From Arthrobacter sp. V1I7 (GTDB lineage: Bacteria > Actinomycetota > Actinomycetes > Actinomycetales > Micrococcaceae), in contig NZ_JAUSYS010000001.1 in assembly GCF_030817015.1 (NCBI RefSeq), positions 4,464,001 through 4,528,000 on the forward strand: a stretch of 64,000 bases of DNA. Direction: 5' to 3'. The notes beneath the pieces are model-generated. The model saw nothing but the letters and a program-made list of their open reading frames with translations. It did not search any database and was not told the origin of the DNA. Of this stretch, positions 32,585-50,215 are shown one piece after another. How positions within the stretch are numbered: the stretch's first letter is position 1; each line of letters begins with the position of its first letter. A program made the translations under genes and the position numbers.

Positions 32585-32601
32585 ATACCCCCTAAGGGTA
32601 T
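32585..32601 (-). promoter_or_regulatory. CsoR operator ATACCCCCTAAGGGTAT
   Basis: A palindromic 17-mer of the CsoR type before the leader frame and csoR, consistent with autoregulation. Similar sites occur at 34446, 34478, 37811, 43398, 43433 and 50191. Confidence 0.8.
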
Positions 32602-32666
32602 CGTACTCCAATAGCAAGCTCAAGCCCCCGCGTTGACTCGTAGAAAACCTCCGCGTAGCCGGATAC

Positions 32667-33967
32667 GTTGCCTCAATTGAAAACCTCCGCGTAGCGGCGT
32701 GGTTTCCGGCCGGGGCGGCGGATGGGGGTTATGCCCGTTTTCATGGAGCTAACGATGGACCAGCGGCAAGCTGTGACAAAGAAGAAAGCCCTCGCCTATA
32801 AGAGCGCCGATCGTGCAGGGAAATCCCGGATCCTGAACGAGCTGGTCGAACTGACCGGTTGGCACCGCGACTATGCCAGGGTAGCCTTGCGGGAGGCCCT
32901 GGTCCTGAAAATCGTCAAGCCCAGACAGGACGCCGGTCTACGGCCCTGATCTGCTCCCGCCGCTGATCAGGTGCTGGGCGGTGCTGCGGGCTCCTGCCGG
33001 CAGGCTGCTGGCCCCGATGCTGCCGGTTCTGGTGCCGCTATTGCGGCGGGACAAGGAGCTTGCGATCACGGATGATCAGGCTGCTTTGCTGATGCGCATG
33101 AGCGCGGCGACCATCGACCGGAAACTCGTCGGTGACGGGCGAAACTTTTCCCGCCGGGCCGGTCACACACCAAGCCCGGCACCCTCCTGAAATCCCAGAT
33201 CCCGATCCGGACCTGGGCCGAGTGGGACGACGCCGTCCCGGGATTCGTGGAGATCGATCTGGTCGGCCACGAGGGCGGCAACAGCTTCGGGGAATTCTGC
33301 TTTACCCTGACAGTGACCGACATTTCCACCGGCTGGACGGTGAATCGGTCCGTGCGGAACAAGGCGGCCAAATGGGTCTTTGAGGCCCTCGAACACGTCA
33401 CCGCTGTGTTCCCGTTTCCCATCATCGGGATCGATTCGGACAACGGCTCGGAGTTCATCAACGAGCACCTGCTCGCCTACTGCCACGGCCACCAGATCAC
33501 GTTCACCCGCTCCCGTCCCGGGAACAAGAACGACGGCGCGCACGTGGAGCAGAAGAACTGGGCCAGGGTCCGGGAACTCGTCGGCTACCTCCGCTACGAC
33601 ACCGCCGCGGAACTCGAGAAACTCAACGAGATCTGGGAACTGGACCGGATCTTCACCAACTACCTGCTGCCCCAGCAAAAGCTCCTCGAGAAACACCGGC
33701 ACGGCGCGAAAGTGACCAAGAAACACGACGCACCTGCCACGCCCCACCAGCGCGCCATCCGGCACGAAAAGATGCGCAAGCGCCCGGTCATTCGGATGAA
33801 CGCCGCCTTCAGGCAGATCAAACCCGGCGCACTCTCACGCCAGATCCTGGCACTCACAGCGCAGCTCGAAACACTGGCCCGAGCCAAACAGCCGGGCGCG
33901 GTCAAACCCGTCAACAGGGCCATGAGGCAACGAATCACCTTTCCCGGAGGTATTGCAATGAGGCAAC
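32667..33967 (+). mobile_element. Insertion sequence with integrase-type transposase (inactive)
   Basis: Imperfect terminal inverted repeats frame about 1.3 kb: left GTTGCCTCAATTGAAAACCTCC (32667-32688; 22 bp, first 9 conserved) and right GGAGGTATTGCAATGAGGCAAC (33946-33967; reverse complement shares GTTGCCTCA and ACCTCC). The left end is flanked by a 17-bp direct repeat GAAAACCTCCGCGTAGC at 32643-32659 and 32679-32695. The transposase inside is frameshifted. No clear target duplication was seen. Confidence 0.65.
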
Positions 33968-33990
33968 AGGGCCCCGCGCTGCCTCATTAA
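32755..33990 (+). pseudogene. Integrase-catalytic-core transposase, frameshifted
   Basis: The N-terminal part (from ATG 32755; ADRAGKSRILNELVELTGWHRDYARVALREAL) is a HTH-like domain. The frame shifts near 32925, continuing as RAPAGRLLAPMLPVLVPLLRRDKELAI, and again twice between about 33145 and 33170, giving the catalytic core: FVEIDLVGHEGG (first Asp), IIGIDSDNGSEFIN (second Asp) and NKNDGAHVEQKNW (Glu). The core is intact and resembles rve-domain transposases seen in Arthrobacter, but the reading frame is broken, so it is inactive unless the breaks are sequence errors. The final residues read through the right terminal repeat. Confidence 0.85.
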
Positions 33991-34050
33991 TAATCCTACG
34001 GCTGGGTGCCGGTTGGTGCCGGGGGCTACGCCGGGTGATTGGGATTGACG

Positions 34051-34330
34051 ATGGCTGAGCGCAAGGCCGTGACGAAGCATCTGGCCAGGTCCTATCAGGC
34101 CGGTGACAGGGTCCGGAAAGGAAGGATCCCGGACGAGGTCGTTGAGCTGACCGGCTGGTACCGGGACCATTCCGGGCGGTGCTGCGGCATGCCCTTGATC
34201 CTCCCAAGCCCAGGCGGGTGACGCCGGGCCGAGCACCGGTATGCGGCGCGGATCTGCAGCCCGCGCTCCGTTGGCCTGCTGAGCGGTGCTGCGCGCACCG
34301 GCCAGCAGGCAGATCATATTCAGCACACTC
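34051..34330 (+). pseudogene. N-terminal fragment of a related integrase-type transposase
   Basis: From ATG 34051 the protein AERKAVTKHLARSYQAGDRVRKGRI is the start of a transposase like that at 32755, and VVELTGWYRDH continues the HTH-like region. A frameshift near 34165 moves to ALRHALDPPKPRRVTPGRAPV. Homology fades by about 34330. It is a different, more diverged copy from the preceding element, whose end lies less than 100 bp upstream, so one IS landed beside the scar of another. Confidence 0.7.
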
Positions 34331-34445
34331 TGGGATGGGCTATTCGTTGTGGCCGATAAAGGGGGCGTCGACGAAAAGAGCGCCGCTTCTGTGATCTGGA
34401 TCCAGCGACGAGGGGTGCTCGTTTCATCAGCACCCTTGCCCGGGG

Positions 34446-34462
34446 ATACCCCCATGGGGTAT
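34446..34462 (+). promoter_or_regulatory. CsoR operator ATACCCCCATGGGGTAT
   Basis: The first of a pair of CsoR-type palindromes 15 bp apart before the HxHP protein gene at 34538. Paired sites allow cooperative binding. A TATATTTATATG stretch between them may hold the -10 element. Confidence 0.8.
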
Positions 34463-34477
34463 ATTTATATGTATGAG

Positions 34478-34494
34478 ATACCCCCTGGGGGTAT
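34478..34494 (+). promoter_or_regulatory. CsoR operator ATACCCCCTGGGGGTAT
   Basis: A perfect palindrome, second of the pair in front of the HxHP protein gene; it ends 43 bp before the start codon. Confidence 0.82.
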
Positions 34495-34537
34495 CTATGG
34501 AACGAATGCCAGCAACGACTGCAGAGGTGGAATCATT

Positions 34538-35392
34538 ATGATGACCAGTCACGACCAGGGTCACGGCGGGCATGAGGGCCACGGGGCTGCCCAGCCCGGC
34601 GGCCTTCTGGTGTCCGAGCACGGGTACACCCTGGAGCTGGATACCCCTATCCTCAGCAGCGGCACACAGACGGTGACCTTCCGGGTCACCGGCCCTGACG
34701 GGCAGGCGGTGACCGACTTCGAGCTCACGCACGAGAAGGAGCTGCACTTCATCGCCATCCGGCGCGACACCATGGGTTTCCAGCACGTGCACCCTGTGAT
34801 GGACCCGTCGGGGACATGGAGCACCGACCTGGATGTGACCCCCGGTGTATGGCGGTTTTTCGCGGATTTCGACCCGGCTGGACACGGTCAGCCCATGACG
34901 CTGGGCATCGACGCCTCGGTCGCCGGGGAATATGACCCGCAGCCGCTGCCGGCGATCACCCGGACCACCGAGGTCGGGGACTACACCGTCACCCTCAAAG
35001 GCTCACTCTCATCGGGCGAGGCGAGCGAACTTACCTTCAGCGTCCAGAGGAACGGAAAGCCGGTGATCGACCTGCAGCCATACCTGGGCGCCTACGGGCA
35101 CCTCGTGGCGCTCCGGGACGGCGACCTGGCCTACCTCCACGTGCACCCGGAGGGAGAGCCCGGTGACGGCAGGACCGTGCCCGGCCCGGAGATCGCGTTC
35201 ATCGCTGCCGCTCCGTCGATGGGGTCGTACCGCCTGCATCTGGATTTCCAGCACGAGGACATCGTCAGGACCGCGCAGTTCACGGTGTCGGCCGGCGGCA
35301 GCGTCCACGGTTCCGGGCACCAGAACGGCCACAACCCGGTTCCGCCGGCGGAAGAGCCAGCTCACCACGGCGGCCACGGGCATCACGCCTAA
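34538..35392 (+). CDS. HxHP-repeat, His-rich probable copper-binding protein (cytoplasmic form)
   Basis: A 284-residue protein without signal peptide. Its N-terminus (HDQGHGGHEGHG) and C-terminus (HHGGHGHHA) are His-rich. Two similar internal units carry HFIAIRRDTMGFQHVHPV (about residues 79-97) and HLVALRDGDLAYLHVHPEG (about 188-206), so the core is an internal duplication with an HVHP site in each. A paralogue with an N-terminal membrane segment lies at 42156-43166. His/HxHP sites suit Cu(I)/Cu(II) binding; a pair of CsoR operators in front strongly suggests copper induction. The start could be ATG 34538 or 34541; GAGGTGG (34524-34530) favours 34538. Exact role, buffering or delivery, is inference. 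Confidence 0.8.
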   Translation: MMTSHDQGHGGHEGHGAAQPGGLLVSEHGYTLELDTPILSSGTQTVTFRVTGPDGQAVTDFELTHEKELHFIAIRRDTMGFQHVHPVMDPSGTWSTDLDVTPGVWRFFADFDPAGHGQPMTLGIDASVAGEYDPQPLPAITRTTEVGDYTVTLKGSLSSGEASELTFSVQRNGKPVIDLQPYLGAYGHLVALRDGDLAYLHVHPEGEPGDGRTVPGPEIAFIAAAPSMGSYRLHLDFQHEDIVRTAQFTVSAGGSVHGSGHQNGHNPVPPAEEPAHHGGHGHHA

Positions 35393-35469
35393 CCCACAGA
35401 CGTCGGTGGCCGGACGGCCGGCCGATGTCAACACCAAGATCTACGCTCTCGAGCGCAAAAGGACCCATC

Positions 35470-36000
35470 ATGCCTCGTTTTACCCGACTCACACCCGCCA
35501 CAGCAGTTGGCGCCTCCCGTGGTCTGCTCTCCGACCTGGTCTCCCGTCATGGCCAGGTCGGTGGCATGGTCTCGATGATGGCGCACTCCCCCGCAGTCCT
35601 GGGCGGCTACCTTGAACTCAGCCGGGCGATGAAGCGCGCCAAGCTCAACCGCAAGCTCAGTGAGCGGATCTCTATCGCGGTCCAGGTCCAGCAAGGCTGT
35701 GGACAGTGCCTTGACTCGCACGTGAACGCCGCCCGCGCCCTGGGAATCGACGAGGACGAGATCGAATGCGCCCGCGCAGGCACCTCGGCCGATCCCGCGA
35801 TGGCGGCGATCATCACGCTGGCGCTCCAGATCTACCGTGAACCAACGACAATCACCGACGAGCAGATCAACGCACTGCGCGGCCACGGCTACAGCGACCG
35901 GGAGATCGCCGACGTCGTCGGCATCGTCTCCCTCAACATCCTCACCGGCGCTTTCAACCTCGTTGCCGGGCTTAGACAACTTCCCCAACCGGTCCCCTAG
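35470..36000 (+). CDS. Carboxymuconolactone-decarboxylase/AhpD-like protein
   Basis: A 176-residue helical protein. The AhpD-type redox centre is present: CGQCLDSHVNAA (about residues 76-87), giving CxxC followed by His, the pattern of alkylhydroperoxidase-D-like disulfide reductases. ERISIAVQVQQGC and LGIDEDEIECARAGTS flank it as in the family. ATG 35470 has AAAAGGA upstream. It lies behind the HxHP gene, presumably on the copper-induced transcript, and would counter peroxide or disulfide stress. A second, frameshifted copy is at 44782. Confidence 0.88.
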   Translation: MPRFTRLTPATAVGASRGLLSDLVSRHGQVGGMVSMMAHSPAVLGGYLELSRAMKRAKLNRKLSERISIAVQVQQGCGQCLDSHVNAARALGIDEDEIECARAGTSADPAMAAIITLALQIYREPTTITDEQINALRGHGYSDREIADVVGIVSLNILTGAFNLVAGLRQLPQPVP

Positions 36001-36072
36001 GGACCATTGACCCCACCTCGGGGGCGCGCCTCAGGCAAGGCCACCCCCTCTTGCATGGATGAAAGGAACACC

Positions 36073-37383
36073 ATGCGTTTGTTCGCAATCCGCGACTACC
36101 GCCATCTATTCAGCGCCCAGGTGATCGCCCTGTTTGGCACCGGGCTGGCGACTGTAGCCCTGGGCCTGCTCGCCTACGAGCTTGCCGGCCCGCGCGCCGG
36201 GGCCGTTCTTGCTACCGCCCTGACGATCAAGATGGTCCTGTACGTCCTCATCGCCCCTCTCGCTGCTGCCTACGTCGATCGACTCCCGAGGCGAGCGTTC
36301 CTTGTCATCCTGGACGTGGTGCGTGCCGCAGTGGTTCTCGCGCTGCCGTTCGTCACCGAGGCCTGGCAGATCTACGTCCTGATCGGCCTGCTCCAGTCAG
36401 CTTCCGCGGCGTTCACCCCGACGTTCCAGGCCGTGATTCCCGACATCGTGACCGACAAAGCCGCCTACACCCGTGCTCTGTCCGCCTCCCAGGTCGCCTA
36501 CACCATGGAGAGCCTGCTCAGTCCCGTGCTCGCTGCAGTCGCGCTGAGCTTCATGACATTCAACTGGCTCTTCCTGGGCACATCGGTAGGATTCATCGTC
36601 TCCGCCGTCTTGGTCCTGTCCACACGCATCCCCAACGCCCAGCCCAGTGCGCATGCCAAAGCATGGGACAGGGCTGCGGCAGGAATCAGAACATTCGTCA
36701 GGACACCGCGGCTGCGCGGCATCATGGCACTGAACCTGGTCGTCGCAGCCGCGGGATCGATCGTCATCGTCAACACCGTGAACTACGTCCGCGACCAACT
36801 TGGCGGTTCCCAGTCGGACGTCGCGTGGATGTTCGCAGCCTCAGGCGGCGGAGCTCTGCTGGCAGCTCTCGCTCTCCCGCGGATACTCGACCGGATCCCA
36901 GAGCGCACCGTCATGATGACCGGCGCCGCAATCCTCGTTGCCGGCACTGCAGCCGCGCTCACGCTCGGCGCAGCGGGGCTCCTGACGTGGACCGCCACCG
37001 CAGTAACGTGGGTGGTGATCGGCGGTGGCATGGCGATGATCGTCACGCCGACGGGCAGGGTCCTTCGCGCCTCGGTCGACGCAAACCGGATACCGGAGGT
37101 CTTCGCAGCCCAGTTCTCACTATCCCACCTTGCCTGGCTGATCACCTATCCCATCGCCGGCTGGCTCGCCGCGAGCTCGGGCTTGACCATCACCTGGTCA
37201 GTCCTGGCAATCCTCGCTCTGGCAGGCGCCGCCGGGGCCCTCTTCCTGTGGCCTCGCCATGACACCCTGACCGCAGCTGCCGCGCCCGCACCCGGGCCCG
37301 CCGAAGTGGACACACTCAGGGAGATGGAAGCCGCAGAAGGCACTCTGGCAGCATGCCAGTGCGCTTCCGTCCGCACAGCCTGA
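36073..37383 (+). CDS. MFS transporter (EntS/MFS_3 type)
   Basis: A 436-residue membrane protein with about 12 segments. The first helix region reads LFAIRDYRHLFSAQVIALFGTGLATVALGLLAYEL, and PLAAAYVDRLPRRAFLVILD is the loop 2-3 signature; both match MFS_3 exporters such as EntS. The short C-terminal tail has CQC. The start is ATG 36073 with AAAGGA 5 bp before it; an in-frame ATG at 36055 lacks this signal. It is the third gene after the CsoR operator pair, followed by a strong hairpin, so it may be copper-induced. Substrate unknown. Confidence 0.88.
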   Translation: MRLFAIRDYRHLFSAQVIALFGTGLATVALGLLAYELAGPRAGAVLATALTIKMVLYVLIAPLAAAYVDRLPRRAFLVILDVVRAAVVLALPFVTEAWQIYVLIGLLQSASAAFTPTFQAVIPDIVTDKAAYTRALSASQVAYTMESLLSPVLAAVALSFMTFNWLFLGTSVGFIVSAVLVLSTRIPNAQPSAHAKAWDRAAAGIRTFVRTPRLRGIMALNLVVAAAGSIVIVNTVNYVRDQLGGSQSDVAWMFAASGGGALLAALALPRILDRIPERTVMMTGAAILVAGTAAALTLGAAGLLTWTATAVTWVVIGGGMAMIVTPTGRVLRASVDANRIPEVFAAQFSLSHLAWLITYPIAGWLAASSGLTITWSVLAILALAGAAGALFLWPRHDTLTAAAAPAPGPAEVDTLREMEAAEGTLAACQCASVRTA

Positions 37384-37428
37384 GTGAAGCAGAGGAGACA
37401 ACTCCTTGAATACAGGATTCTCAGAGCC

Positions 37429-37461
37429 GGAAGCCGGGACCCTTGGACGGTCCCGGCTTCC
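37429..37461 (+). terminator. Hairpin terminator after MFS gene
   Basis: GGAAGCCGGGAC (37429-37440) and GTCCCGGCTTCC (37450-37461) form a perfect 12-bp stem with a 9-nt loop, 45 bp after the stop. A T-tract is weak. Confidence 0.7.
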
Positions 37462-37810
37462 GTACATTCCCCACACAGTGCATCGGCGGAATGCCCCATG
37501 CTGTTGCCAGTAGCGGCTCAGATCCACAGGCGGCCCTGCTCGCCAACAGCAGCAGTTGGCCGCGAGCCGCCGAGGCGACTTTACCGGTCTGCGCTAAGAG
37601 CGTCCTCTCGGCGCTGGCGGAGTTAGCTGTCGGATTCGGACGAGAGTGGACTGTCATGCTGCCCTGACGGATGCGTGCAACACGGCATGCAGGGCAGCTT
37701 CACCCCATGGCGCGCCCACTGGCACACCGTTAATTGGGTCCCCCGCCCCCGCCAGGACAAGTAAGGAGAAATGACCGGCGGGGTTCGGCAAAGCGATCAT
37801 GAGCATACCT

Positions 37811-37827
37811 ATACCCCCACTGGGTAC
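37811..37827. promoter_or_regulatory. Degenerate CsoR-like site ATACCCCCACTGGGTAC
   Basis: One half (ATACCC) is perfect and the other is GGGTAC instead of GGGTAT. No intact gene follows on either strand, so it may be the operator of a lost copper gene. Confidence 0.45.
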
Positions 37828-39764: not shown

Positions 39765-42083
39765 TCAGGCGTCGATCGGCTGTCGTGCACGGGAGCGCGC
39801 GGCGGCCGGTGACGGGTTTCCTGCCTGGCTTTTGAAAGAGCGCAGACGGAGACTGTTGGAGACCACGAAGACGCTGGAGAACGCCATCGCGGCTCCGGCG
39901 AGCATCGGGTTGAGCAGCCCGAGGGCGGCCAATGGGATCGCAGCCACGTTGTAGGCGAAGGCCCAGAACAGATTGGTCTTGATCGTGCTGAGGGTTTTGC
40001 GGGCAAGCCGGATCGCATCTGCAGCAGCGCGCAGGTCACCGCGTACCAAGGTGAGGTCAGCCGCTTCGATGGCGACATCGGTGCCGGTTCCCATGGCCAG
40101 GCCCAGGTCCGCCTGGGCCAGGGCTGCGGCGTCGTTAACACCATCACCGACCATGGCTACGACTTTGCCCTGCTTCTGCAGGTCCGTGACAACACGAACC
40201 TTGTCCTGGGGCAGGACTTCGGCGATGACCTGTTCGATCCCTACCTGGGCGGCGACCTGTTCGGCGACTACCCGATTGTCACCCGTGAGCAGCACCGGCG
40301 TCAGGCCCAGGGCGCGGAACTGTGCGATGGCCTCGGCGCTGGTTTCCTTGATCGCATCAGCGACGGTTAGCACTCCTCGGACCTGCCCGTCCCAGGCAAC
40401 GACCACGGCGGTCTCCCGGGCTGATTCGGCCTGTGCTTTGACGCGGGCCAGGTCTGCGGGCATGGTCAGGGACCAGTCCTCGAGCATGGCTTCGCGTCCA
40501 ATAATGACCAGGTGTCCATCGACCACACCCTGCACGCCGCGCCCTTCGATGTTCTTAAAGGATTCCGGGGTGGGCAGGTTCCCGACACGCTCGGTGGCGC
40601 CGCGGGCGATGGCCTGGGCGATGGGGTGCTCGGAAGCGTCCTCCAGGGCCCCGGCGACGCGGAGCAGTTCGTTCGTGTCGGTGCCCGGTGCGGTATGGAC
40701 ACCCTGCAAGGTCATCTTGCCGGTGGTGACTGTGCCGGTCTTGTCCAACAGGATGGTATCGACCTTGCGGGTGGATTCGAGCACTTCCGGGCCCTTGATC
40801 AGAATGCCCAGCTGGGCCCCGCGGCCGGTACCGACCAGCAGTGCAGTGGGGGTGGCCAGACCCAGGGCGCAGGGGCAGGCGATGATCAGGACGGCTACGG
40901 CGGCGGTGAATGCTGCCGTCACCGGGAACCCTGCACCAAGCCACACGGCCAGTGTGCCAACAGCGATGGCGATCACGATGGGCACGAACACCCCCGAGAT
41001 CCGGTCGGCCAGCCGCTGGACTTCGGCCTTGCCGGACTGGGCGTTCTCCACGAGCTGGGCCATTTGCGCCAGCTGGGTGTCCGAACCGACCCGGGTTGCG
41101 CGGACGAGAAGGCGGCCGCCGGAGTTGACGGTGGCGCCCGTTACGGTGTCCCCTTCCCCGACTTCTACCGGAACGGATTCGCCGGTGAGCATCGATTCAT
41201 CAACGGCGCTGCGGCCGCTGACGACGACGCCGTCGGTGGCGATTTTCTCGCCGGGACGGACGATGAACTCATCGCCGACCGACAGCTGGTCGGTGGGGAT
41301 GCGGATTTCGTCGCCGTCGCGCAGCACGGCCACGTCCTTGGCGCCGAGCTCCAGCAGCGCGCGCAGCGCCGCTCCGGCCTGGCGCTTGGATCGCTTTTCA
41401 AAGTAGCGTCCGGCGAGGATGAACAGGATTACCGCCGCGCCGACTTCCAGGTAGATGTTGGCAGCCCCGTCAGTGGGGGCAACTGTCAGTTCGAAGGGGT
41501 GCGTCATTCCCGGTGTTCCGGCGGTGCCGAAGAACAGGGCGTAAAGGGACCACAGGAACGCTCCCGTGGTGCCCATGGAGATCAGGGTGTCCATTGTCGC
41601 GGCACCGTGGCGAAGGTTGGTATATGCGGCTTTGTGGAAGGGCCAACCGGCCCAGAGGATGACGGGAGCGGCCATCGCCAAGGACAGCCACTGCCAGTAA
41701 TTGAATTGCAGGGCGGGGATCATAGCCATTGCGATGACGGGGATCGCGAGCACGGCGCTGCCGATAAGCCGGTGTTTCAGGGACGTCAGTTCGGCGTCGG
41801 GCCGGTCGCTGTCTTCCCCGCCCTGCTGCTGTTCCCGCCGTGCGCTGGGCAGGGCTGCGGTGTAACCGGTCTTCTCCACCTCAGCGACCAGGTCCTGAGG
41901 ATCATATCCGGCAGGGGCGGTGATACGTGCCTTCTCGGTAGCATAGTTCACCGAAGCGATGACGCCATCGAGCTTATTGAGCTTGCGTTCGATCCTGTTG
42001 GCGCACGAAGCGCAGGTCATCCCGCCGATCTCAAGTTCGATGTCGATGCCCGGCGCCTGTTGAAAGGCCGCGGTTTCAGACAT
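39765..42083 (-). CDS. copA: Copper-translocating P1B-type ATPase
   Basis: A 772-residue membrane ATPase that exports Cu(I). The order is: heavy-metal domain with GGMTCASC (about residues 20-27), eight membrane segments, the actuator ([21 protein letters not shown]), the membrane metal site [10 protein letters not shown], the phosphorylated Asp in DKTGTVTTG, the SEHPIAQAI loop and [16 protein letters not shown]. All key residues are present and length is normal. It is preceded by the HxHP paralogue and CopZ in one leftward unit, controlled by the operator pair near 43.4 kb. The antisense frame of 579 codons is a shadow. Confidence 0.96.
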
Positions 42084-42155: not shown

Positions 42156-43166
42156 TCAGTGATCGCCATGCCCGTCGTCAGCTGCGCTGTCGGTGGGAGT
42201 GATCTCGGGGGTGACCGTTGCGGAAGGCTCCGATGCTGCCGCCGGGGCTGATCCCGTGGTGTCCAAGACGAACCGGGCGGAATGGACTTGCCCGTCGACC
42301 TGGAAATCGAAATAGAGGTAGTAGCGGCCAGGGGTCGGAGCGGTGGTTGCGAATTTCACTTCGGGCCCGGAGACTTCGCCGTTGACCGGTTCAGCACCTT
42401 CAGGGTGGGTGTGCAGGTAGGCTAAGTCCCCCGCACGCAGCGCCACCAGATGCCCGTAAGCCCCCAAATAGGGCTCCAGGCTGGTTACCGGCTGACCGTC
42501 ACGGCTGACACTAACCGTCAGAGCCGCGGCTGATCCGGCCCCCAGGTCACCATTCAGGGAGACCTGGAACCCGTCCACTTCATCGGCGGCCGACACTTCC
42601 AAGGAGGCGGGCTCGAAGGGCCCGGCCACATCTATCGTGCGGGTCAGTGTCAGGCCCTCACCGGCTCCGGCCGGCACAACGTCGGCGTAAATCCGGTACG
42701 TGCCTGCCGCTTCCCACTGCCACGGCAGCGACCAGCGCCCGGCCTCGTCCATAACGGGATGCACATGACGGTAATTGGATCCGTCAGAACGCACCACAAT
42801 CAGGTGGGCCTGCTTTCCGTGCGAGGTCTCAAACTGGGTCACTGGGGACCCTTCGGGGCCGGTGATCGTGAACGCCAGCTCCCCGGCAGTTCCGATTGCC
42901 GCGGGAGCGGTGATCCCACCGAGCAGGTAGCCGCCCCGTTCGGCAGTGACGCCCTTTACCGGGGACCCGGCCATGGCTGCGCCCGGAGCCGGCGCCGGTG
43001 ACTCCGCGTGTCCGGCACTGGCGTGCCCGCCAGTGGAACCCTGCGCGGACTGCGCCCAGGCAGTAACTGCCTGCTCCGGCACCACGGCTCCTGCCACAGC
43101 GAAACCCGCGGCAAAGACCACGGCGAGTCCCGCTGCGTAAGCGCCCAGTCGTCCGGCTGCGTTCAT
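42156..43166 (-). CDS. HxHP-repeat probable copper-binding protein (membrane-anchored form)
   Basis: A 336-residue paralogue of the 34538 protein. An N-terminal membrane segment (LGAYAAGLAVVFAAGFAVAGAVV, about 7-29) sends it to the cell surface. The duplicated core is the same: SNYRHVHPV and HLVALRAGDLAYLHTHPEG. The linker and C-terminus (HASAGHAESP, DDGHGDH) are moderately His-rich. Its ATG overlaps the copZ stop by 4 bp (ATGA), and copA follows after 72 bp, so metal could pass between CopZ, this protein and CopA. Function in Cu handling outside the membrane is inferred. Confidence 0.8.
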   Translation of the reverse strand: MNAAGRLGAYAAGLAVVFAAGFAVAGAVVPEQAVTAWAQSAQGSTGGHASAGHAESPAPAPGAAMAGSPVKGVTAERGGYLLGGITAPAAIGTAGELAFTITGPEGSPVTQFETSHGKQAHLIVVRSDGSNYRHVHPVMDEAGRWSLPWQWEAAGTYRIYADVVPAGAGEGLTLTRTIDVAGPFEPASLEVSAADEVDGFQVSLNGDLGAGSAAALTVSVSRDGQPVTSLEPYLGAYGHLVALRAGDLAYLHTHPEGAEPVNGEVSGPEVKFATTAPTPGRYYLYFDFQVDGQVHSARFVLDTTGSAPAAASEPSATVTPEITPTDSAADDGHGDH

Positions 43167-43375
43167 GCCGACCGCACCCCGCGGTAGCCGGCCGTTTGAA
43201 CAGCTGCGATGACAGCTGCGTCGTCGACGGTTCCGTTGCCACTGACCACGAGCTTGCCGGTTCGGTGGCTGACCTCTACAGACCCGACGCCGGGCACTTC
43301 CTGGACTTCTTCGCGAATGGACATCTCGCAGTGACCGCAGGTCATGCCGGTTACCTGGAATTCAGTGGTGGCCAT
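43163..43375 (-). CDS. copZ: Copper chaperone (heavy-metal-associated domain)
   Basis: A 70-residue single HMA domain, ferredoxin-like fold: MATTEFQVTGMTCGHCEMSI carries the CxxC Cu(I) site (Cys13, Cys16), and AAVQTAGYRG closes the fold. ATG 43375 is preceded by AAGGAAAG. It is the first gene of the leftward unit copZ-HxHP-copA, directly below two CsoR operators, so it should be strongly copper-induced and donates Cu(I) to CopA. Confidence 0.94.
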   Translation of the reverse strand: MATTEFQVTGMTCGHCEMSIREEVQEVPGVGSVEVSHRTGKLVVSGNGTVDDAAVIAAVQTAGYRGVRSA

Positions 43376-43397: not shown

Positions 43398-43414
43398 ATA
43401 CCCCTAGGGGGTAT
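43398..43414. promoter_or_regulatory. CsoR operator ATACCCCTAGGGGGTAT
   Basis: One of two CsoR-type sites in the 108 bp between divergent copZ (-) and the FAD enzyme gene (+). It begins 23 bp from the copZ start. Confidence 0.82.
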
Positions 43415-43432
43415 GTGTATAGTGGTGAGCAT

Positions 43433-43449
43433 ATACCCGCAGGGGGTAT
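43433..43449. promoter_or_regulatory. CsoR operator ATACCCGCAGGGGGTAT
   Basis: Second site of the divergent pair, 35 bp before the ATG at 43484. The two could shut down both directions together. Confidence 0.8.
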
Positions 43450-43483: not shown

Positions 43484-44647
43484 ATGGCTCAGCAGGGAAT
43501 CATTATTGCGGGAGCGGGGGCCGCTGGCATGAGCGCCGTTGCCTCGTTGCGCGCCGAAGGTTACGAAGGGCCGCTGACAGTGATCAACGGCGAACCGCAC
43601 CTGCCCTACAACCGGACACTGGTCAATAAGGGCGTGCTGCCAGGCCTGCTCACCGTCGAGCAGATCACTCAGCCTGGAGCCCGTGCGCTGGAGGGCGATC
43701 TCGTGCAGGGCCGTGCGGCCTCTCTGGATACGGAGAATTTTCTTCTAACCCTGGAGGACGGCCGGGCCTTGCCCTACACGGCCCTGATCGCCGCCACGGG
43801 AAGTGCTCCGCGGCCTGACAGCCGGATCACGGCCGCCCCTGAGCGGGTATTCCATCTCCACACTGCCCAGGACGCCGTCCGGCTGCGCGCACAGCTTGGC
43901 GCAAGCGCTGACACGAAGACCATCACAATCCTGGGTGCGGGCTTCATTGGAGCCGAAACGGCCAGTTACCTCGCCGACGCTGGCGCACGCGTAAATCTCG
44001 TCGCCCGCTCCGCCACGCCGCTGGCCGCTGCGCTCGGTAGCCACATCGCCCAGCAGATCGGCGAACTGCACCGCCTCAACGTCACTAGCCACTTCGGCCA
44101 GGACATCACCGCCCTGATCCCCGGGCCAGCTTCGGTCACCGCCACCCTCAGCGATGGGCAAATCCTGGAGTCTGACCTCGTTGTCATTGCCCACGGTAAC
44201 GCGCCGAGCTCGGCATGGATCACCGGCGACGATAACGGCATTGCCGTCGACTCCCACCTCCGGGTCCGGGGTTTCGAGCGCCTCTATGCAGCCGGCAGCG
44301 TCGCCCTTCACCCCGCCAGCGACGGGCAGCTCTACGGCATCGACCACTGGGACGCTGCCGCCGCCCAGGGCGCCCACGCCGCCAGGGCAGTTCTGCATGA
44401 CATCACCGGCGCGCCTGACCCCGGCCCCTACACCCCCGACACCGGATATACCCTCACCGTCTACCGGCAATCCGCAGCCGCCTACGGCACCGTGCTACCT
44501 GGCAGCCATGAAACCCAACATGACACCGGCACCCCCAAATCGGCCCTGTCCAGCTTCCACCGCCCCGACGGCACAATGATCGCCGTGGCCGGACTCAACG
44601 CCTTCCCGCAACTGCTCGCCGCCCGCAACCAGCTCACCACCCCCTAA
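43484..44647 (+). CDS. FAD-dependent NAD(P)-disulfide/ferredoxin-reductase-like protein
   Basis: A 387-residue flavoprotein of the rhodocoxin/ferredoxin reductase type. FAD binding is in IIIAGAGAAGMSAVASLRAEG (about residues 6-26), the NAD(P) site in ITILGAGFIGAETASYL (about 147-163) and the second FAD strand in LYAAGSVAL. No CxxC redox site is seen, so it is not a thiol reductase of the TrxB type. ATG 43484 has AGGAGG 5 bp upstream, deciding it over the 43196 frame start. It is divergent from copZ with shared CsoR operators and leads an AhpD-like and a thioredoxin gene. Reducing Cu(II) or organic partners is possible. Confidence 0.85.
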   Translation: MAQQGIIIAGAGAAGMSAVASLRAEGYEGPLTVINGEPHLPYNRTLVNKGVLPGLLTVEQITQPGARALEGDLVQGRAASLDTENFLLTLEDGRALPYTALIAATGSAPRPDSRITAAPERVFHLHTAQDAVRLRAQLGASADTKTITILGAGFIGAETASYLADAGARVNLVARSATPLAAALGSHIAQQIGELHRLNVTSHFGQDITALIPGPASVTATLSDGQILESDLVVIAHGNAPSSAWITGDDNGIAVDSHLRVRGFERLYAAGSVALHPASDGQLYGIDHWDAAAAQGAHAARAVLHDITGAPDPGPYTPDTGYTLTVYRQSAAAYGTVLPGSHETQHDTGTPKSALSSFHRPDGTMIAVAGLNAFPQLLAARNQLTTP

Positions 44648-44781
44648 CCCCGCCGGATCACTAGCTTCCCAGGAGACACCATGATGCCCGAAGCATCGCC
44701 TCAGGGGTCCGTCCTGCCGGGCGGCACCCGTCCCGGCGCCGGAGCGACGCCCATAGGAACCGCGTCGGAGTCCCGAGCCGG

Positions 44782-45352
44782 ATGGAACCGATGAATGTCG
44801 TCAAGGCTGTGGGGGCAGCCTGGGACATGGTGACCGACGTCGTTGCCCGACAGGTAGAGCCCGGCAACATGGCAGTCACCATGGCCCTGTCCCCCACAGT
44901 GTCCGAACGCACGCGGGCACTGGTCTCGATCGCGATACAAGCCCGACTGGACTGCGGCCCTTGCCTGGCCTATTACGAGTCGACCGCCCGGTCTGTTGGC
45001 CTTGACGAGGCCCAGATCGAAGCAGCCCGACTCGGCACCTCTTCCGACCCATGCGGTCGCCACGCTGATCAAAGTAGCTCTGGCCGTCCACGCCAGTTCC
45101 ACCACTATCACGGCCGGGCAGGTAGCAGCCCTAAGAAACGTCGGATACAGCAACCGCGAGATCGCCGACGCCGTCTTGGTCGTGGCTCAGAACGTAGTCC
45201 TCGGCGCGTTCCAGCTCATCGCCGACCACCATACCGACCGCACTGTACAACCCCTGGGCCTCCTGCCAAGACCCCGTCACCGCGGGGGGCGCAGAGGCGA
45301 TCCATCCGGCTCCATCACCACCGATAAAGGAAAACCCCATGTCCACCATTAA
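44782..45352 (+). pseudogene. AhpD-like (carboxymuconolactone decarboxylase) protein, frameshifted
   Basis: Paralogue of the 35470 protein. From ATG 44782, AVGAAWDMVTDVVARQVEPGNMAV and ARLDCGPCLAYYESTARSVGL (CxxC present, the His replaced by Tyr) run to ARLGTSSDP. A frameshift near 45050 moves the rest to another frame: HAVATLIKVALAVHASS, NREIADAVLVVAQNVVLGAFQL. The second frame stays open to 45352, overlapping the start of trx. A single-base error would restore it, so it may be functional in reality. It is second in the operon after the FAD enzyme. Confidence 0.8.
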
Positions 45353-45695
45353 CCTCACGGAACAAGATTTCAGCCGCACCATCGAAGACAACGACATCGT
45401 CATGGTCGACTTCTGGGCCAGCTGGTGCGGCCCATGCCGGATGTTCGCCCTTACTTACGAAGCGGCTTCCGTGAAGCACACCGATATCGTCTTCGCCAAG
45501 GTCGACACCGAGGCCGAACAGGCACTGGCTACATCGGCCGGGATAAATTCCATCCCCACACTGATGGTCTTCAGGGAAGGGGTTCTGGTGTTCTCCCAGC
45601 CCGGAACCATGCCGGGCGGTGACTTGGAAAAAGTCATTGCGGGCATCAGGAAGTTCGACATGGCAAAAATTCGTGCAGACCTGGCAGACCAGTAA
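45339..45695 (+). CDS. trxA: Thioredoxin
   Basis: A 118-residue cytoplasmic thioredoxin with VDFWASWCGPCRM (active Cys30 and Cys33), the cis-Pro SIPTLMVF (about residue 73) and PGGDLEKVI near the end. Length and motif order are standard. ATG 45339 has AAAGGA 8 bp upstream. It follows the AhpD-like gene and FAD enzyme behind copper operators, so it probably reduces disulfides formed under copper stress and could be the partner of the AhpD-like protein. The trxB fragment at the window start is too far to be the same operon. Confidence 0.93.
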   Translation: MSTINLTEQDFSRTIEDNDIVMVDFWASWCGPCRMFALTYEAASVKHTDIVFAKVDTEAEQALATSAGINSIPTLMVFREGVLVFSQPGTMPGGDLEKVIAGIRKFDMAKIRADLADQ

Positions 45696-45817
45696 GCGCA
45701 CCGGTCTGATCCGGCTGGCCGTGAAGGAGTCGGCCGCAGCCGGTCCTACCTTTCGCCAGCTCTCCCCGTACTGACCAAGGGACGACCGGCGCCATCGGGG
45801 AATCAATCAGGAAGGTC

Positions 45818-45943
45818 ATGAAAATGATGCACGCCCGTATCGCGAGAATACTGATGGAAGTTGGCCGACGAACCTCCATTGATCCGACGCTGGAAGCCAA
45901 AGGCTTGCACGTCGCCCTTCGCGCAAACATCACCCGGCGGTAG
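45818..45943 (+). CDS. Possible small basic protein (41 residues)
   Basis: A short frame ATG 45818 to TAG 45941, MHARIARILMEVGRRTSID-x-x-LEAKGL-x-V-LRA. GGAAGG lies only a few bases before; the in-frame ATG at 45824 would have an 8-bp spacing and is more likely. The IS110 end begins 80 bp further. No family recognised; it may be the truncated start of a gene lost by the insertion. Confidence 0.3.
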   Translation: MKMMHARIARILMEVGRRTSIDPTLEAKGLHVALRANITRR

Positions 45944-46023
45944 CACGTGTCCGTCGATACTTTCCCCAATACCAACCCCGCCCGCACTCTGCAACGGAAA
46001 GTCGTCCGGGTGCTGGGGGTCTG

Positions 46024-47385
46024 ATGCTCCTATCGTGTGTCAAGCGGTGGCGAGCCAGTTTCTGTAGCGATCGGCGAGTTCGGGCAGCGGCCGGGCTTTG
46101 CGCTCGATATCGGAGATCCGGGCGGGCCACGTGCTTAAGGCTACGGCCACTTGACTGAGGGTGATGTTCTTTTTCGTGCGAATGGCGCGGAGGTCGGCTT
46201 GGACCGTCCTTACTGCTGGGCTGGTAAGGATGCGGTAGATCTCTCGGACGATGGCCCTTTTGAGGCAGCGGATGATTTCCTTCTTGCTCTTGCCATCCTG
46301 TGTGCGGCGCTCGACGTAGGCGCGGGTTTTGGGGTCGTGGCGCATTCGGACGAGTGCGATGCGGTGGAGGGCGGCGTTACCCTGTCTGTCGCCGCCACGG
46401 TTGAGCCGGTGGCGGGTGGTGCGCCCGGAGGACGCCGGGATTGGCGCGGCGCCGCAGAGCGCGGCGAACGACGCTTCGTTGCGGATCCGCTCTGGGTTGC
46501 CGCCCGCGGTCACGACGAGTTGCGCGGCGACCAGGGTCCCGACGCCGTAGACATCCAGCAATGCTGGGTGGTGCGCCTGGACGAGTTCATGCAATTGCGT
46601 CTCGATGCCGGCGACGCGGTCTGAGAGCTCCTGGTGGGCGCAAGCCATCGTCTTCAGGGCCAGCCCGGCGGCGTCTTCAGGGCCGGCCAGATCGGATCCA
46701 GGACGACTACTGGCCAGACGGCGCAGCAGCGCGTCCGTGTCCAGGTCCCGGTATCTGGCGCGGACCGGTTCTGGAGCGGTGATCAGCAGCCCTTTAATGG
46801 CGTTGGAGATCGAGGTCATGGAGGAGACGAACCGTTTCCGCGCGCCGAGCAGGAATCGGATGGATTCAGCGGCGGTGTTGGTGTCTTTCGGGATGGAGAT
46901 GCCACGGCCGGAAAGCACCGTACGGGCAGCTTCGACTGCGTCGACAGGATCTGATTTCCCATTCATCCGGCGCACCTGCCGGGTAGGGCGCAGGACTTCC
47001 AGCACGGTGTGTCCGGCGGACTGAAGGGCCCGGGTCAGGCCGGCGCCGTAGGAGTTGGTGCCCTCGACACCGATCCCCCGGACGGGGCCGGCTGAGGCTA
47101 CGGCATCGATGAGCGCGGCATAGCCACGGCTGTCCGCCGTGAACGTCGCGGTGGAGACCACCGCGCCGTTCTCGGTGAGAATGGCAAGGGTGTGAGTGTC
47201 GGTGTGGGTGTCGACCCCGGCGACGCGTCCGGCCGCGTCGACATCCGCTCTCGCGTGTGGCATATGGTGTCCTTCCAAGCAACGGTTCGGGTTGTCACCG
47301 TTGGCCCTGTCGGCCGCAGACAGGACGCTGAAGGGACGCGCACCATGGCAGGGCCAACTGGTCATGGGATCGGTCATGCTCCTAT
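46024..47385 (-). mobile_element. IS110-family element
   Basis: The 10-mer ATGCTCCTAT occurs at 46024-46033 and 47376-47385, just outside the two ends of an IS110 transposase gene, and nowhere was a usual inverted repeat seen. IS110 elements lack inverted repeats and recombine at a short core (often CT), so such a shared sequence is a plausible pair of junctions. The outer boundary at the right may lie further out, since a structured segment continues to 47520. Confidence 0.6.
46040..47263 (-). CDS. IS110-family transposase with C-terminal HTH extension
   Basis: A 407-residue DEDD transposase. The N-terminal RuvC-like domain has GVDTHTDTHTLAI (Asp), GVEGTNSYGAGL (Glu) and RRMNGKSDPVDAVEAART (two Asp). 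The C-terminal Tnp2 domain has PALLDVYGVGTLVAAQLV, ASFAALCGAAPIPASSG and RGGDRQGNAALHRI with the Ser nucleophile region. The last 60 residues, RAIRTKKNITLSQVAVALST and WPARISDIERKARPLPELADRY, look like an Xre-type HTH, which ordinary IS110 transposases do not have. ATG 47263 has GGAAGGA 7 bp upstream. The transposase appears intact. Confidence 0.92.
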   Translation of the reverse strand: MPHARADVDAAGRVAGVDTHTDTHTLAILTENGAVVSTATFTADSRGYAALIDAVASAGPVRGIGVEGTNSYGAGLTRALQSAGHTVLEVLRPTRQVRRMNGKSDPVDAVEAARTVLSGRGISIPKDTNTAAESIRFLLGARKRFVSSMTSISNAIKGLLITAPEPVRARYRDLDTDALLRRLASSRPGSDLAGPEDAAGLALKTMACAHQELSDRVAGIETQLHELVQAHHPALLDVYGVGTLVAAQLVVTAGGNPERIRNEASFAALCGAAPIPASSGRTTRHRLNRGGDRQGNAALHRIALVRMRHDPKTRAYVERRTQDGKSKKEIIRCLKRAIVREIYRILTSPAVRTVQADLRAIRTKKNITLSQVAVALSTWPARISDIERKARPLPELADRYRNWLATA

Positions 47386-47450
47386 GAGGTCATGAACCGG
47401 CAGAGCCCACGGCTGGTCCCGGGAACGCAGGACAAATCAGGTCAAGGACA

Positions 47451-47468
47451 GGTCCCCCGAAGGGGGCC
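47451..47468 (-). terminator. Strong hairpin in non-coding segment beside IS110
   Basis: GGTCCCCC-GAA-GGGGGCC forms a 7-bp stem with a 4-nt loop in the non-coding stretch between the IS110 transposase start and IS256. It could be part of the IS110 guide (bridge) RNA or a terminator. Confidence 0.4.
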
Positions 47469-47520
47469 GCCAGTCAAGTATCGGGTCACTGCATTCCCGG
47501 ACCCTTCCAGTATCAGCGTC

Positions 47521-48884
47521 AAGTTTTCGGTGTAACTGGTTTTGATTTTATTTCTTGCCGGCGGACAGGCGTCCGTCGAAGGTGACTTCGAAGGCATTGA
47601 GCGCAGCCTTCCAGCGGTTGGACCAGCGTTGTCGGCCCGTCCCGGTGGGGTCCAGACTCATGACCGCCAGATAGACGCATTTGAGCGCGGCCTGCTCCGT
47701 GGGGAAGTGTCCGCGGGCATTCACGGCTCGCCGGATGCGCGCGTTGATGCTCTCTATGGCGTTGGTCGTGCAGATGATGGTGCGGATCTCGCGGTCGAAC
47801 TGCAGGAAGGGCACGAATTCGGCCCAGGCGTTGGTCCAGAGCCGGATGATCGCCGGGTAGCGCTTTTCCCACTTCTCGCTGAACTCCACGAACCGGTCCA
47901 GGGCATCGGATTCCGACGCCGCCGTGTAGACGGGCTTGAGGTCCTTCGCGATCGCGGACCAGTCCTTCTTCGACGCGTAGCGGAACGAGTTGCGCAAAAG
48001 GTGAACAATGCAGGTCTGGGTGATCGTCTGAGGCCAGACGGTGGCGATGGCCTCGGGCAGGCCCTTGAGCCCGTCACAGACCACAATCAGGCAGTCCTGG
48101 GTGCCGCGGTTCTTGATCTCGGACAGGACCCGCAGCCAGTACTTCGCCCCCTCCCCGTCACCGTGCTCGCCGGCCCAGAGCCCAAGGATGTCACGGGTGC
48201 CCTCGCAGGTCACCGCCAGCGCCACGTAGATCGGCCGGTTCGTGACCTGCCCGTCGCGGATCTTCACGTTCACCGCGTCGATGAAGATCACCGGATAGAC
48301 CGGATCCAGCGGCCGGCTCTGCCAGGCCGACAAACCCTCCAAGACCTTCTCCGTGATGGTGGAGATCGTCTGCTTGGAGACCTCCGCGCCGTAGACCTCG
48401 GCCAGGTGGGCGCAGATCTCCCCGTGCGTGAGTCCCTTGGCGGACAGCGAGATGACCAGGTCATCGAGCCCGGACAGGCGGCGCTGCCGCTTCCTGACCA
48501 GCTCCGGGGTGAACGAGCCGTCCCGATCCCGCGGCACCGCGATCTGCACCGGACCGGCCTCGGTCAACAGCTCCTTGGACCGGGTGCCGTTCCGCGAGTT
48601 CCCGCCGTCCCTGCCAGCCGGATCGTGCCGGGCGTAGCCCAGATGGTCCTCCATCTCGCCCTCCAGCGCCGATTCCACGACCATCTTCGTCAGCCGGGAC
48701 AGCAGCCCGCCCTCACCGGTCAGCCGCAGGCCTTCCGCACGCGCCCGCTCACTCAGCTGCTGCACCAACTGCTCATCCAGCGCGTCCGCCGGAGCCGGCG
48801 CAACCATGCTCGTCGCAGCAGTCACATCACTAATCACATCAGTCACGGCAACCTCCTAATTCTCTGGAGTTACACCGTTTAAAT
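47521..48884 (-). mobile_element. IS256-family element
   Basis: Terminal repeats AAGTTTTCGGTGTAACT (47521-47537) and AGTTACACCGTTTAAAT (48868-48884) are inverted with a shared GGTGTAACT core, enclosing 1364 bp with one transposase gene. The 8 bp on each side (TCAGCGTC and TTACAGTC) are not the same, so no target duplication survives. The right end cuts the start of an MFS gene. Confidence 0.8.
47548..48846 (-). CDS. IS256-family transposase
   Basis: A 432-residue mutator-type transposase: HLGYARHD motif region, first Asp in IFIDAVNVKIR (about residue 198), second in LIVVCDGLKGLPEAI (about 264), Glu in TTNAIESINARIRRAV (about 375). Length and all catalytic residues are normal, so the element may still be mobile. 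The start is GTG 48846 with TAGGAGG 5 bp upstream. The antisense frame of 446 codons is a shadow. Confidence 0.95.
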   Translation of the reverse strand: MTDVISDVTAATSMVAPAPADALDEQLVQQLSERARAEGLRLTGEGGLLSRLTKMVVESALEGEMEDHLGYARHDPAGRDGGNSRNGTRSKELLTEAGPVQIAVPRDRDGSFTPELVRKRQRRLSGLDDLVISLSAKGLTHGEICAHLAEVYGAEVSKQTISTITEKVLEGLSAWQSRPLDPVYPVIFIDAVNVKIRDGQVTNRPIYVALAVTCEGTRDILGLWAGEHGDGEGAKYWLRVLSEIKNRGTQDCLIVVCDGLKGLPEAIATVWPQTITQTCIVHLLRNSFRYASKKDWSAIAKDLKPVYTAASESDALDRFVEFSEKWEKRYPAIIRLWTNAWAEFVPFLQFDREIRTIICTTNAIESINARIRRAVNARGHFPTEQAALKCVYLAVMSLDPTGTGRQRWSNRWKAALNAFEVTFDGRLSAGKK

Positions 48885-48894
48885 TACAGTCCCG

Positions 48895-50073
48895 GTGCTG
48901 GCCATGGCGCAGCTCCTGGGAGGAATCGGCACGGGAGCCACCATGAGCCTTGGGGCGATGCTGGTCGTTAACGTCTCAGGCTCCGCAGCTTGGTCCGGCA
49001 TGGCTATGACGATGGGAGCTCTGGGCGCTGCGCTGCTGGCGATACCCCTTGCCCGCCTGGCTCAGGCCAAGGGCAGGCGAATTTCGCTTAGTACAGGAGC
49101 TGGGATCGCTGTGGCAGGCGGGCTAATTGTGATCGTCTCGGCGGGCATGACCATTTTTCCGTTACTTCTGGTCGGCATGATTCTGATGGGCTCGGGCTCC
49201 GCGCTGAGCCTGCAGGCCCGCTTCGCCGCAACTGACCTCGGGAGCGAGGCCACCCGGGGGCGGGATTTATCTCTTGTTGTTTGGTCGACAACCATCGGGG
49301 CAGGAGTCGGCCCTAACCTATTCGGACCCGGAGAAAGTCTGGGCCAGGCCATGGGGATGCCCCAATTCACCGGCGGGTTCATCATTGGCGGCATCGCGCA
49401 GCTGCTCGGCGCCGCCGTCTACCTCATTGGTTTACGGCCGGATCCATTGCTTACCGCAGCTAAAGCTCGCAGTGCTGAGGAAGGTTCCCTGCCCCAAGCC
49501 AAAGTGGCTTCCGTCGACGGTCTGAGTCTGTTGCGATCTTCGCCGGCCGCGAAAAGCGCGGTGCTCGCTCTGGCCCTGAGCCACGCAGTCATGGTCGCGC
49601 TCATGGCCATGATCCCCGTGCATCTGACCGGCAATGGCGTGTCGCTGAACCTGGTAGGACTAACGATCAGCCTGCACGTGGTTGGCATGTTCGCGTTCTC
49701 CCCTGCCCTGGGTCACCTCACGGACCGCTTTGGCGCACGGGTGGTTGTCTTGGCAGGGCAGGCCATACTCCTCGCCGCCCTGCTGCAGGCCATGCTGGGA
49801 TCCGACAACCAGGTTCTGGTCATCGTGACCCTGGTCCTGCTGGGCTTGGGCTGGTCGGCCTCCACTGTGGCTGGCTCCACGATGGTCGGTGCAGCGGTCG
49901 AGCCCATTCATCGGCCGCGGCTTCAGGGTGTATCCGATTCACTCATGAATTTGGCAGGAGCGGCAAGCGGCGCCGCCGGACCCGTCCTGGCGCACATCGG
50001 ATTCAACGGGCTAAGTGCTGCCCTTATCGCGCTGGTCGCTGTCACGGTAATAGCCCAAATGGGGCAAAGATGA
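48895..50073 (+). CDS. MFS transporter with 5' end cut by IS256
   Basis: A 392-residue membrane protein with about 12 segments; the first visible one is AQLLGGIGTGATMSLGAMLVV. RLAQAKGRRISLSTGAGIAV is the loop 2-3 motif, and HLTDRFGARVVVLAG the corresponding loop 8-9. Related proteins have a short cytoplasmic leader before the first segment; here IS256 ends only 10 bp before the first possible codon (GTG 48895), so the natural start and promoter are lost. It may still be made from a promoter at the IS end, or be dead. Substrate unknown. Confidence 0.8.
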   Translation: MLAMAQLLGGIGTGATMSLGAMLVVNVSGSAAWSGMAMTMGALGAALLAIPLARLAQAKGRRISLSTGAGIAVAGGLIVIVSAGMTIFPLLLVGMILMGSGSALSLQARFAATDLGSEATRGRDLSLVVWSTTIGAGVGPNLFGPGESLGQAMGMPQFTGGFIIGGIAQLLGAAVYLIGLRPDPLLTAAKARSAEEGSLPQAKVASVDGLSLLRSSPAAKSAVLALALSHAVMVALMAMIPVHLTGNGVSLNLVGLTISLHVVGMFAFSPALGHLTDRFGARVVVLAGQAILLAALLQAMLGSDNQVLVIVTLVLLGLGWSASTVAGSTMVGAAVEPIHRPRLQGVSDSLMNLAGAASGAAGPVLAHIGFNGLSAALIALVAVTVIAQMGQR

Positions 50074-50190
50074 CAGGGGCCTCCGCCGCCTGCGGGACTT
50101 TGCGCCCGCTCCCGATCCATTATTGGGCGCTGGCGAGATGGCTCACTTTTCGACCATCGCTGACACAGGTGTTGTTTCTTGCTCCTATCT

Positions 50191-50215
50191 ATACCCTACA
50201 GGGGTATGGTATAAA
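50191..50215 (+). promoter_or_regulatory. CsoR operator with overlapping promoter
   Basis: ATACCCTACAGGGGTAT (50191-50207) is directly followed by TATAAA (50210-50215), a good -10 element. A repressor at the palindrome would cover the -35/-10 spacer. The site lies 101 bp before the MFS gene at 50317. Confidence 0.78.

Follow-up and report, generated by a model that had tools for sequence, protein, structure and literature searches.

How far beyond the copper pumps does the control exerted by a copper-sensing CsoR repressor extend? The question is raised by a 64,000-nucleotide stretch of the genome of Arthrobacter sp. V1I7 (5.03 Mb, two contigs), which spans C1:4464001-4528000, is hereafter called the window, and has its closest named protein relatives in Arthrobacter and Pseudarthrobacter. 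A first-pass annotation had proposed that seven CsoR-type palindromes mark one regulon that spans copper pumps, redox proteins and drug-type exporters. Our analysis sustains this proposal: conserved boxes at orthologous promoters argue for a single such regulon, and the region is very probably a copper-resistance island under CsoR whose regulon is wider than the pumps. All seven palindromes lie where that annotation had placed them, six of them (32585, 34446, 34478, 43398, 43433 and 50191) matching the pattern ATACCCNNNNNGGGTAT (ATACCC-N5-GGGTAT) exactly and the one at 37811 with one mismatch:

32585..32601, minus strand, CsoR box ATACCCCCTAAGGGTAT, exact, 215 bp upstream of csoR
34446..34462, plus strand, CsoR box 1 of the HxHP1 operon, exact
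34478..34494, plus strand, CsoR box 2 of the HxHP1 operon, exact, 32 bp from box 1 (start to start)
37811..37827, no strand assigned, degenerate box with one mismatch and no conserved gene behind it
43398..43414, no strand assigned, CsoR box 1 of the divergent promoter between copZ and the gene of a flavin adenine dinucleotide (FAD) enzyme, exact
43433..43449, no strand assigned, CsoR box 2 of the same promoter, exact, spacing 35 bp
50191..50207, plus strand, CsoR box of the DHA2 exporter gene, exact, 110 bp upstream of its start

This seven-box set is far from chance: at up to two mismatches the window holds seven boxes, against a mean of 1.19 in shuffled sequence (maximum 5; none of 100 shuffles reached seven). 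The whole genome holds 11 exact boxes, six of them in the window, or 17 places when one mismatch is tolerated, while a reversed control pattern occurs once. By the gene lists, 10 of the 11 exact boxes stand at csoR, cop or island promoters; outside the window, the box at 646426 precedes an HMA/CopB-type ATPase pair, those at 2788087 and 2788118 a further copZ-HxHP-copA operon, and that at 4688825, accompanied by a one-mismatch box at 4688849, a second csoR (genome position 4688490) in the neighbourhood of a copA. The remaining exact box (C1:4420246-4420262) lies 123 bp before a metallo-hydrolase/rhodanese gene, and three of the four remaining one-mismatch places fall inside open frames of at least 100 codons. 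The boxes, the gene order and their conservation can be read directly from the DNA. In 49 related loci (941,683 bases, including a stretch of L038 that recurs as L124 and several closely similar Microbacterium loci), we counted 130 boxes with at most one mismatch, compared with 0-2 for each of five control patterns. Because the exact box at 4420246 (L020:5247-5263) was kept by none of 28 orthologs, the conservation test discriminates; that box is probably accidental or strain-specific.

The most surprising member of the proposed regulon is the exporter gene behind the box at 50191:

50317..51765, plus strand, DHA2 (EmrB/QacA-type) exporter of a cysteine-free, likely copper-linked clade (PF07690, 164.4 bits against 33.4)

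The name DHA2 expresses likeness, as the protein does not reach the cut-off of TIGR00711 (EmrB; 215.1 versus 230.2), still its best NCBIfam match. Orthologs were present in six of 295 genomes of the family (E ≤ 1e-130) and in 26 of 394 genomes class-wide (E ≤ 1e-150), the window's own included in both counts. At the family level, a box with at most one mismatch lies within 180 bp in all six non-self loci (5 genomes), and the same holds for the four genome-contig loci of at least 61% identity, the re-fetched stretches L122 and L123 not being counted again. Class-wide, the non-self loci number 26, from 25 genomes of which 7 belong to one genus; 18 carry such a box within 400 bp (in L148 at 307 bp), and two more do so at two mismatches. 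On plasmids (11 records, of which two from R. opacus carry the same proteins), a box within 400 bp was found in five when up to one mismatch was allowed and in every record when up to two were. Six annotated Rhodococcus plasmids show an “MFS transporter” divergent from copZ, together with a “hypothetical protein” matching HxHP, a His-rich protein described below, and a heavy-metal ATPase (copA). By contrast, the loci of the seven DHA2 paralogs that the window's genome encodes are all free of boxes, even when two mismatches are allowed. The clade recurs beside csoR, copZ or copA across Actinomycetes, its members labelled “MFS transporter” or drug exporter, and its control is likely copper-linked. 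In the literature searched, we recognised no paper that names it.

What this exporter would carry is a separate matter. It is a distinct possibility, if somewhat short of probable, that DHA2 is copper-controlled and yet an ordinary multidrug pump, with copper serving as the signal for copper-dependent antimicrobials; this concerns the cargo, not the control, and is compatible with a CsoR regulon wider than the pumps. The nearest solved relatives, the exporters EfpA, QacA and EmrB, speak for such a pump, as does the count of zero cysteines in all 11 aligned clade members, while the linkage of DHA2 to csoR, copZ or copA across many families, which the drug-pump-like paralogs of the same genome do not share, speaks against it. 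More tentatively, the cysteine-free DHA2-like clade may represent dedicated copper resistance across Actinomycetes, namely a second, proton-driven exporter of Cu(I) or a copper complex beside CopA under CsoR, with HxHP and a ferredoxin-reductase-like enzyme as partners. Next to DHA2, and also near it in several relatives, we noted a gene that we read as USP-like (51872-52438), seemingly frameshifted near its start.

The second group of non-pump genes, behind the box pair at 34446 and 34478, is an operon of three:

34538..35392, plus strand, HxHP1, His-rich two-domain protein with no N-terminal helix stretch (within the open reading frame (ORF) 34286-35392)
35470..36000, plus strand, AhpD1, CMD/AhpD-family protein with CGQC (PF02627, 48.4 bits on the longer ORF)
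36073..37383, plus strand, MFS1, MFS transporter with a C-terminal CQC tail (PF07690, 99.4 bits on the longer ORF)

For HxHP1 relatives sharing 60% identity or more, all six distinct non-self loci with enough upstream sequence to be counted (L026, L027, L028, L107, L108 and L109) carry a box no further than 400 bp from the gene, and three plasmid records (L165, L174, L175) carry an exact box before the gene. AhpD1 belongs to the AhpD family core (TIGR00778, 50.7 bits versus a cut-off of 27.8, with CGQC in the sequence); its orthologs (71-78% identity) occur in 15 of 295 family genomes, the window's own included, and all 15 non-self loci adjoin csoR, copA, copB or HxHP1, 12 of them with a box. 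Orthologs of MFS1 with at least 67% identity, a protein that stays below the TIGR00900 cut-off (260.4 versus 319.6 bits), mostly either form part of the HxHP1 operon or follow a separate box, and only one of 24 paralogs has a box (L083, beside a divergent CopZ-like ORF). A cysteine in the MFS1 tail is present in 11 of 11 aligned orthologs versus 0 of 28 paralogs; because relatives with another tail exist, including L164, the CQC tail is at this stage a sequence lead only.

The third group is arranged around the divergent promoter at 43398 and 43433, with the copper pump on one side and the FAD enzyme on the other:

39765..42083, minus strand, copA, copper P-type ATPase (TIGR01511, 547.7 bits against a cut-off of 397)
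42156..43166, minus strand, HxHP2, with an N-terminal membrane-type helix and two Ig-like (immunoglobulin-like) beta-sandwich domains (predicted model, alignment)
43163..43375, minus strand, copZ, HMA-type copper chaperone by our own reading (within the ORF 43163-43600)
43484..44647, plus strand, FAD enzyme, ferredoxin-reductase-like, without CxxC (PF07992, 129 bits on the longer ORF; PDB 3lxd and BphA4 entries)
44782..45327, plus strand, AhpD2, CGPC motif, frame broken in the second half (ORFs, partial profile match)
45339..45695, plus strand, thioredoxin, WCGPC (PF00085, 86.1 bits against 23.5)
48895..50073, plus strand, MFS2, found after the thioredoxin in L026 and L027, with an N terminus shorter than that of L027

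The copZ product shares 77-81% identity with the corresponding ORFs of L026-L028. Orthologs of the FAD enzyme (E ≤ 1e-60) occur in four of 245 family genomes, the window's own included, and the other three (62, 48 and 43% identity) are transcribed away from copZ-HxHP2, two to four boxes (0-2 mismatches) lying in the stretch between. A scan of genome contigs returned 42 FAD loci, of which L067 (Bdellovibrionales, no cop gene) was dropped; among the 41 actinobacterial loci left, 39 hold a CopA- or CopB-like ORF (all except L061 and L063). In 22 of the 41, boxes with no more than one mismatch precede the estimated start of the FAD gene by 27-201 bp, and copZ is divergent in 21 of these.

The named genes were indeed present, subject to corrections that concern the box at 37811, AhpD2, the nature of the FAD enzyme and the placement of MFS2. 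The boxes head csoR, the HxHP1 group, copZ-HxHP2-copA with the FAD gene, and DHA2, as the first-pass annotation had it, while the box at 37811 heads no conserved gene. Likewise, the divergent FAD/AhpD/thioredoxin group stands as regards the FAD enzyme and the thioredoxin, while AhpD2 is frameshifted, split over two frames (ORFs 44782-45327 and 44996-45352) of which the first covers part of the CMD profile. The FAD enzyme is, by homology across most of its chain, a BphA4-type ferredoxin reductase (PDB 3lxd, 4h4x and 1d7y; E 1e-30 to 1e-27 across residues 5-305 or more), and it lies below all NCBIfam equivalog cut-offs. It has no CxxC, and no cysteine is invariant among four orthologs; a disulfide reductase of the thioredoxin or mycothione reductase type was rejected, as a redox-active cysteine pair is missing. 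The thioredoxin, which narrowly misses TIGR01068 (94.3 versus 96.8), also follows the FAD gene in L026 and L027, and at 60% identity or above it was found only in these two and in the window among the loci compared. In those two relatives the cluster is continuous; in the window, MFS2 is parted from the FAD and thioredoxin genes by two ORFs (46040-47377 and 47548-48846) that are transposase-like by our own reading, no family search having been run on them. Because the AhpD2 frame is broken and MFS2 lies behind these ORFs, the FAD transcript of this strain probably yields the FAD enzyme and the thioredoxin. Thiol repair, which the first-pass annotation had made part of the response, is a weak theme of the regulon: the flavoprotein has no redox cysteine pair, the thioredoxin was found at that identity in three of the compared loci only, and of the two AhpD genes one has a broken frame.

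The two HxHP proteins, 40% identical in alignment, matched no Pfam or NCBIfam family at E 0.001, and the YtkA profile gave weak matches to 8 of 30 HxHP members (best E 7.8e-4). An AlphaFold model of HxHP2 (mean pLDDT, the predicted local distance difference test, 82.3) has an N-terminal helix (3-28) followed by the two Ig-like domains, with invariant histidines at 116, 121, 134 and 136 in the first and at 239, 252 and 254 in the second. In P0192 of Arthrobacter crystallopoietes, a CopZ-type HMA domain and an HxHP protein are naturally fused. The HxHP proteins would bind metal, and the claim of one surface and one cytosolic HxHP protein fits the HxHP2 model and the HxHP1 sequence: HxHP2 would be membrane-anchored, judging from the modelled helix, and HxHP1, whose start has no such stretch, would be cytosolic.

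Several observations weigh against a regulon of this breadth. In six of the 26 DHA2 loci from across the class, no box appears even at two mismatches, and all six hold a CopZ-, CopA- or CsoR-like ORF within the locus of about 4 kb (weakly so in L143). No box was found in three of the 15 AhpD1 loci (L106, L118, L119), in the loci of the MFS1 orthologs L078 and L079, though these follow a FAD-like ORF, or near the MFS1 relative L164, which lies behind HxHP1- and AhpD1-like ORFs. For the FAD gene, 13 of 41 loci lack a box of at most one mismatch at a distance of 400 bp or less, and in six similar Microbacteriaceae loci the box is 358 bp away. The box at 37811 looks orphaned: in a blastn comparison of window positions 37380-39760 with the loci fetched by then, just the last ~350 bases aligned, and no conserved gene was headed by the box. 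Moreover, since the exact box at 4420246 is unconserved, a single box is no proof; several island genes are broken or parted by transposase-like ORFs; and many of the counted loci share their genus with others and are not independent.

These points bear on the possibility that only copZ-copA and csoR are controlled, the boxes at the FAD gene, HxHP1-AhpD1-MFS1 and DHA2 being bystanders and the genes hitch-hiking in a mobile resistance island. The transposase-like ORFs and broken genes of the window would fit it, as would the FAD box pair, common to the divergent copZ, and the FAD loci that have no box of their own. We nevertheless regard it as unlikely: DHA2 and HxHP1 have their own boxes, which in many loci lie at a distance from copZ and which other families have kept, while the paralogs of DHA2 and MFS1 are, with one exception, boxless.

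The identity of the repressor also favors copper control of these genes:

32029..32370, minus strand, csoR, DUF156 repressor with a C-H-C Cu(I) ligand pattern (profile, PDB, motif)

The protein matches PF02583 at 101.1 bits versus a cut-off of 22.8 (on the longer ORF 32029-32487), and its best PDB match is the S. lividans CsoR 4adz (1.9e-29), with the YCID...H...C ligands aligned. It satisfies the CsoR/RicR motif R.{13}M.....YC.D.*H...C, as do 41 of 45 CsoR-family ORFs in the fetched loci; three of the other four retain C-H-C, which brings that pattern to 44 of 45. A RicR assignment was not reached (NCBIfam NF052430, 128.8 versus 175 bits). The persulfide sensor CstR has two cysteines and no ligand histidine, and the ligand histidine of the window protein rules out CstR. 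In the PF02583 search at E 0.001, the genome held only two such genes, the window csoR and a second, both C-H-C, and no CstR- or FrmR-like repressor able to explain the boxes was found. The motif is the one quoted for Frankia in the excerpted text of PMC4531530.

The operators agree with this assignment. According to the part of PMC3902906 available to us, S. lividans CsoR requires TAC-X9-GTA flanking G/C tracts and controls csoR, copZA1 and copZA2; the window boxes fit this type-2 operator, six of them exactly. In relatives, the core of the csoR box recurs with one mismatch 298-380 bp before csoR, as GTACCCCCTAAGGGTAT in L026 and L027 and as TTACCCCCTAAGGGTAT in L121. On Rhodococcus plasmids (L166-L168, L173, L176-L178), boxes take forms such as ATACCCCCCTACCGTAT, and this suggests a lineage-specific drift of the operator. 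The 215-bp leader that separates csoR from its box is overlapped by a 69-codon ORF (32367-32576, minus strand). That the non-pump boxes belong to another DUF156 regulator of the CstR persulfide or FrmR type, the redox genes answering sulfur or aldehyde stress, is very improbable, for even though relatives such as CstR also bind G/C tracts (PMC3902906, as excerpted) and one exact box precedes a rhodanese-fused metallo-hydrolase, the C-H-C pattern prevails in the genome and in the fetched loci, the rhodanese box is unconserved, and FAD, AhpD1 and DHA2 genes travel with copper ATPases or csoR/copZ.

For the wide copper regulon we infer CsoR binding, copper induction and the functions of all non-pump proteins as follows. 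In the absence of copper, apo-CsoR would sit on the TAC-X9-GTA boxes at the promoters and block transcription, two boxes lying visibly between -35 and -10. A simple sigma-70 scan of window positions 32000-51900 gave five promoter-like sites, no excess over a shuffle mean of 3.1 (standard deviation 1.7), and two of the five span boxes: TTGCCC-18-TATATT (34436-34465) has box 34446 inside its spacer, and TTTATA-17-TATAGT (43395-43423, plus strand) has box 43398 inside. The boxes would often act in pairs 31-35 bp apart; among 43 neighbouring pairs less than 120 bp apart, 31 have this spacing, about three helical turns (similar loci and one repeated locus counted), and in a manual count over the 29 distinct pairs listed, 14 have GTCAA (TTGAC as read on the strand of copZ) after box 2. 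Cu(I) bound at the C-H-C site, as established for S. lividans CsoR, would then release the repressor. Derepression would yield CopZ, CopA, the membrane-anchored and the cytosolic His-rich HxHP protein and the ferredoxin-reductase-like flavoprotein, along with AhpD- and thioredoxin-type proteins, the MFS transporter and the DHA2 exporter. The cargo of DHA2 and MFS1 would most likely be copper itself or a compound that bears copper or is generated by it; the flavoprotein and AhpD would most likely handle redox damage or the redox state of copper.

A regulon wider than the pump has a precedent in RicR of M. tuberculosis, an actinobacterial CsoR paralog that controls mymT, lpqS, mmcO and others; these are other genes than those of the window, whose CsoR is below the RicR cut-off. 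As far as examined, published CsoR regulons are small and pump-centred. The S. lividans regulon, as described in the excerpted source, shares with the window a C-H-C CsoR, the TAC-X9-GTA operator and boxes before csoR and copZ-copA, and its copZA1 core GTACCCCCTAGGGGTAT is one end base apart from box 43398 read on the minus strand. It comprises three operators, of csoR and copZA only, to which the window adds HxHP1-AhpD1-MFS1, FAD-(AhpD2)-thioredoxin and DHA2. A further published CsoR comparison, so far as its text was accessible, has csoR, copA and HMA proteins, and dual sites are common there as in the window; the accessible part of its table has no FAD reductase, AhpD, MFS or DHA2. Should the wide regulon prove real, “multidrug exporters” found across the class would acquire a physiological context, copper handling would come to include a flavoprotein and a family of uncharacterised His-rich proteins, and these proteins would become candidates for the copper survival of soil actinobacteria.

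The COP module of the Arthrobacter plasmid pA40H1 (Tn6516), which the excerpted text of PMC6305408 describes as three genes, has copZ, a heavy-metal-binding protein and copA in common with the window. We found that pA40H1 also carries a csoR-type gene, and HxHP1, AhpD1 and MFS1 behind an exact box. A small cysteine-rich ORF that follows copA in the window (39476-39730) resembles, by eye and not by search, a gene annotated with a YHS domain by the cop cluster of that plasmid (L165).

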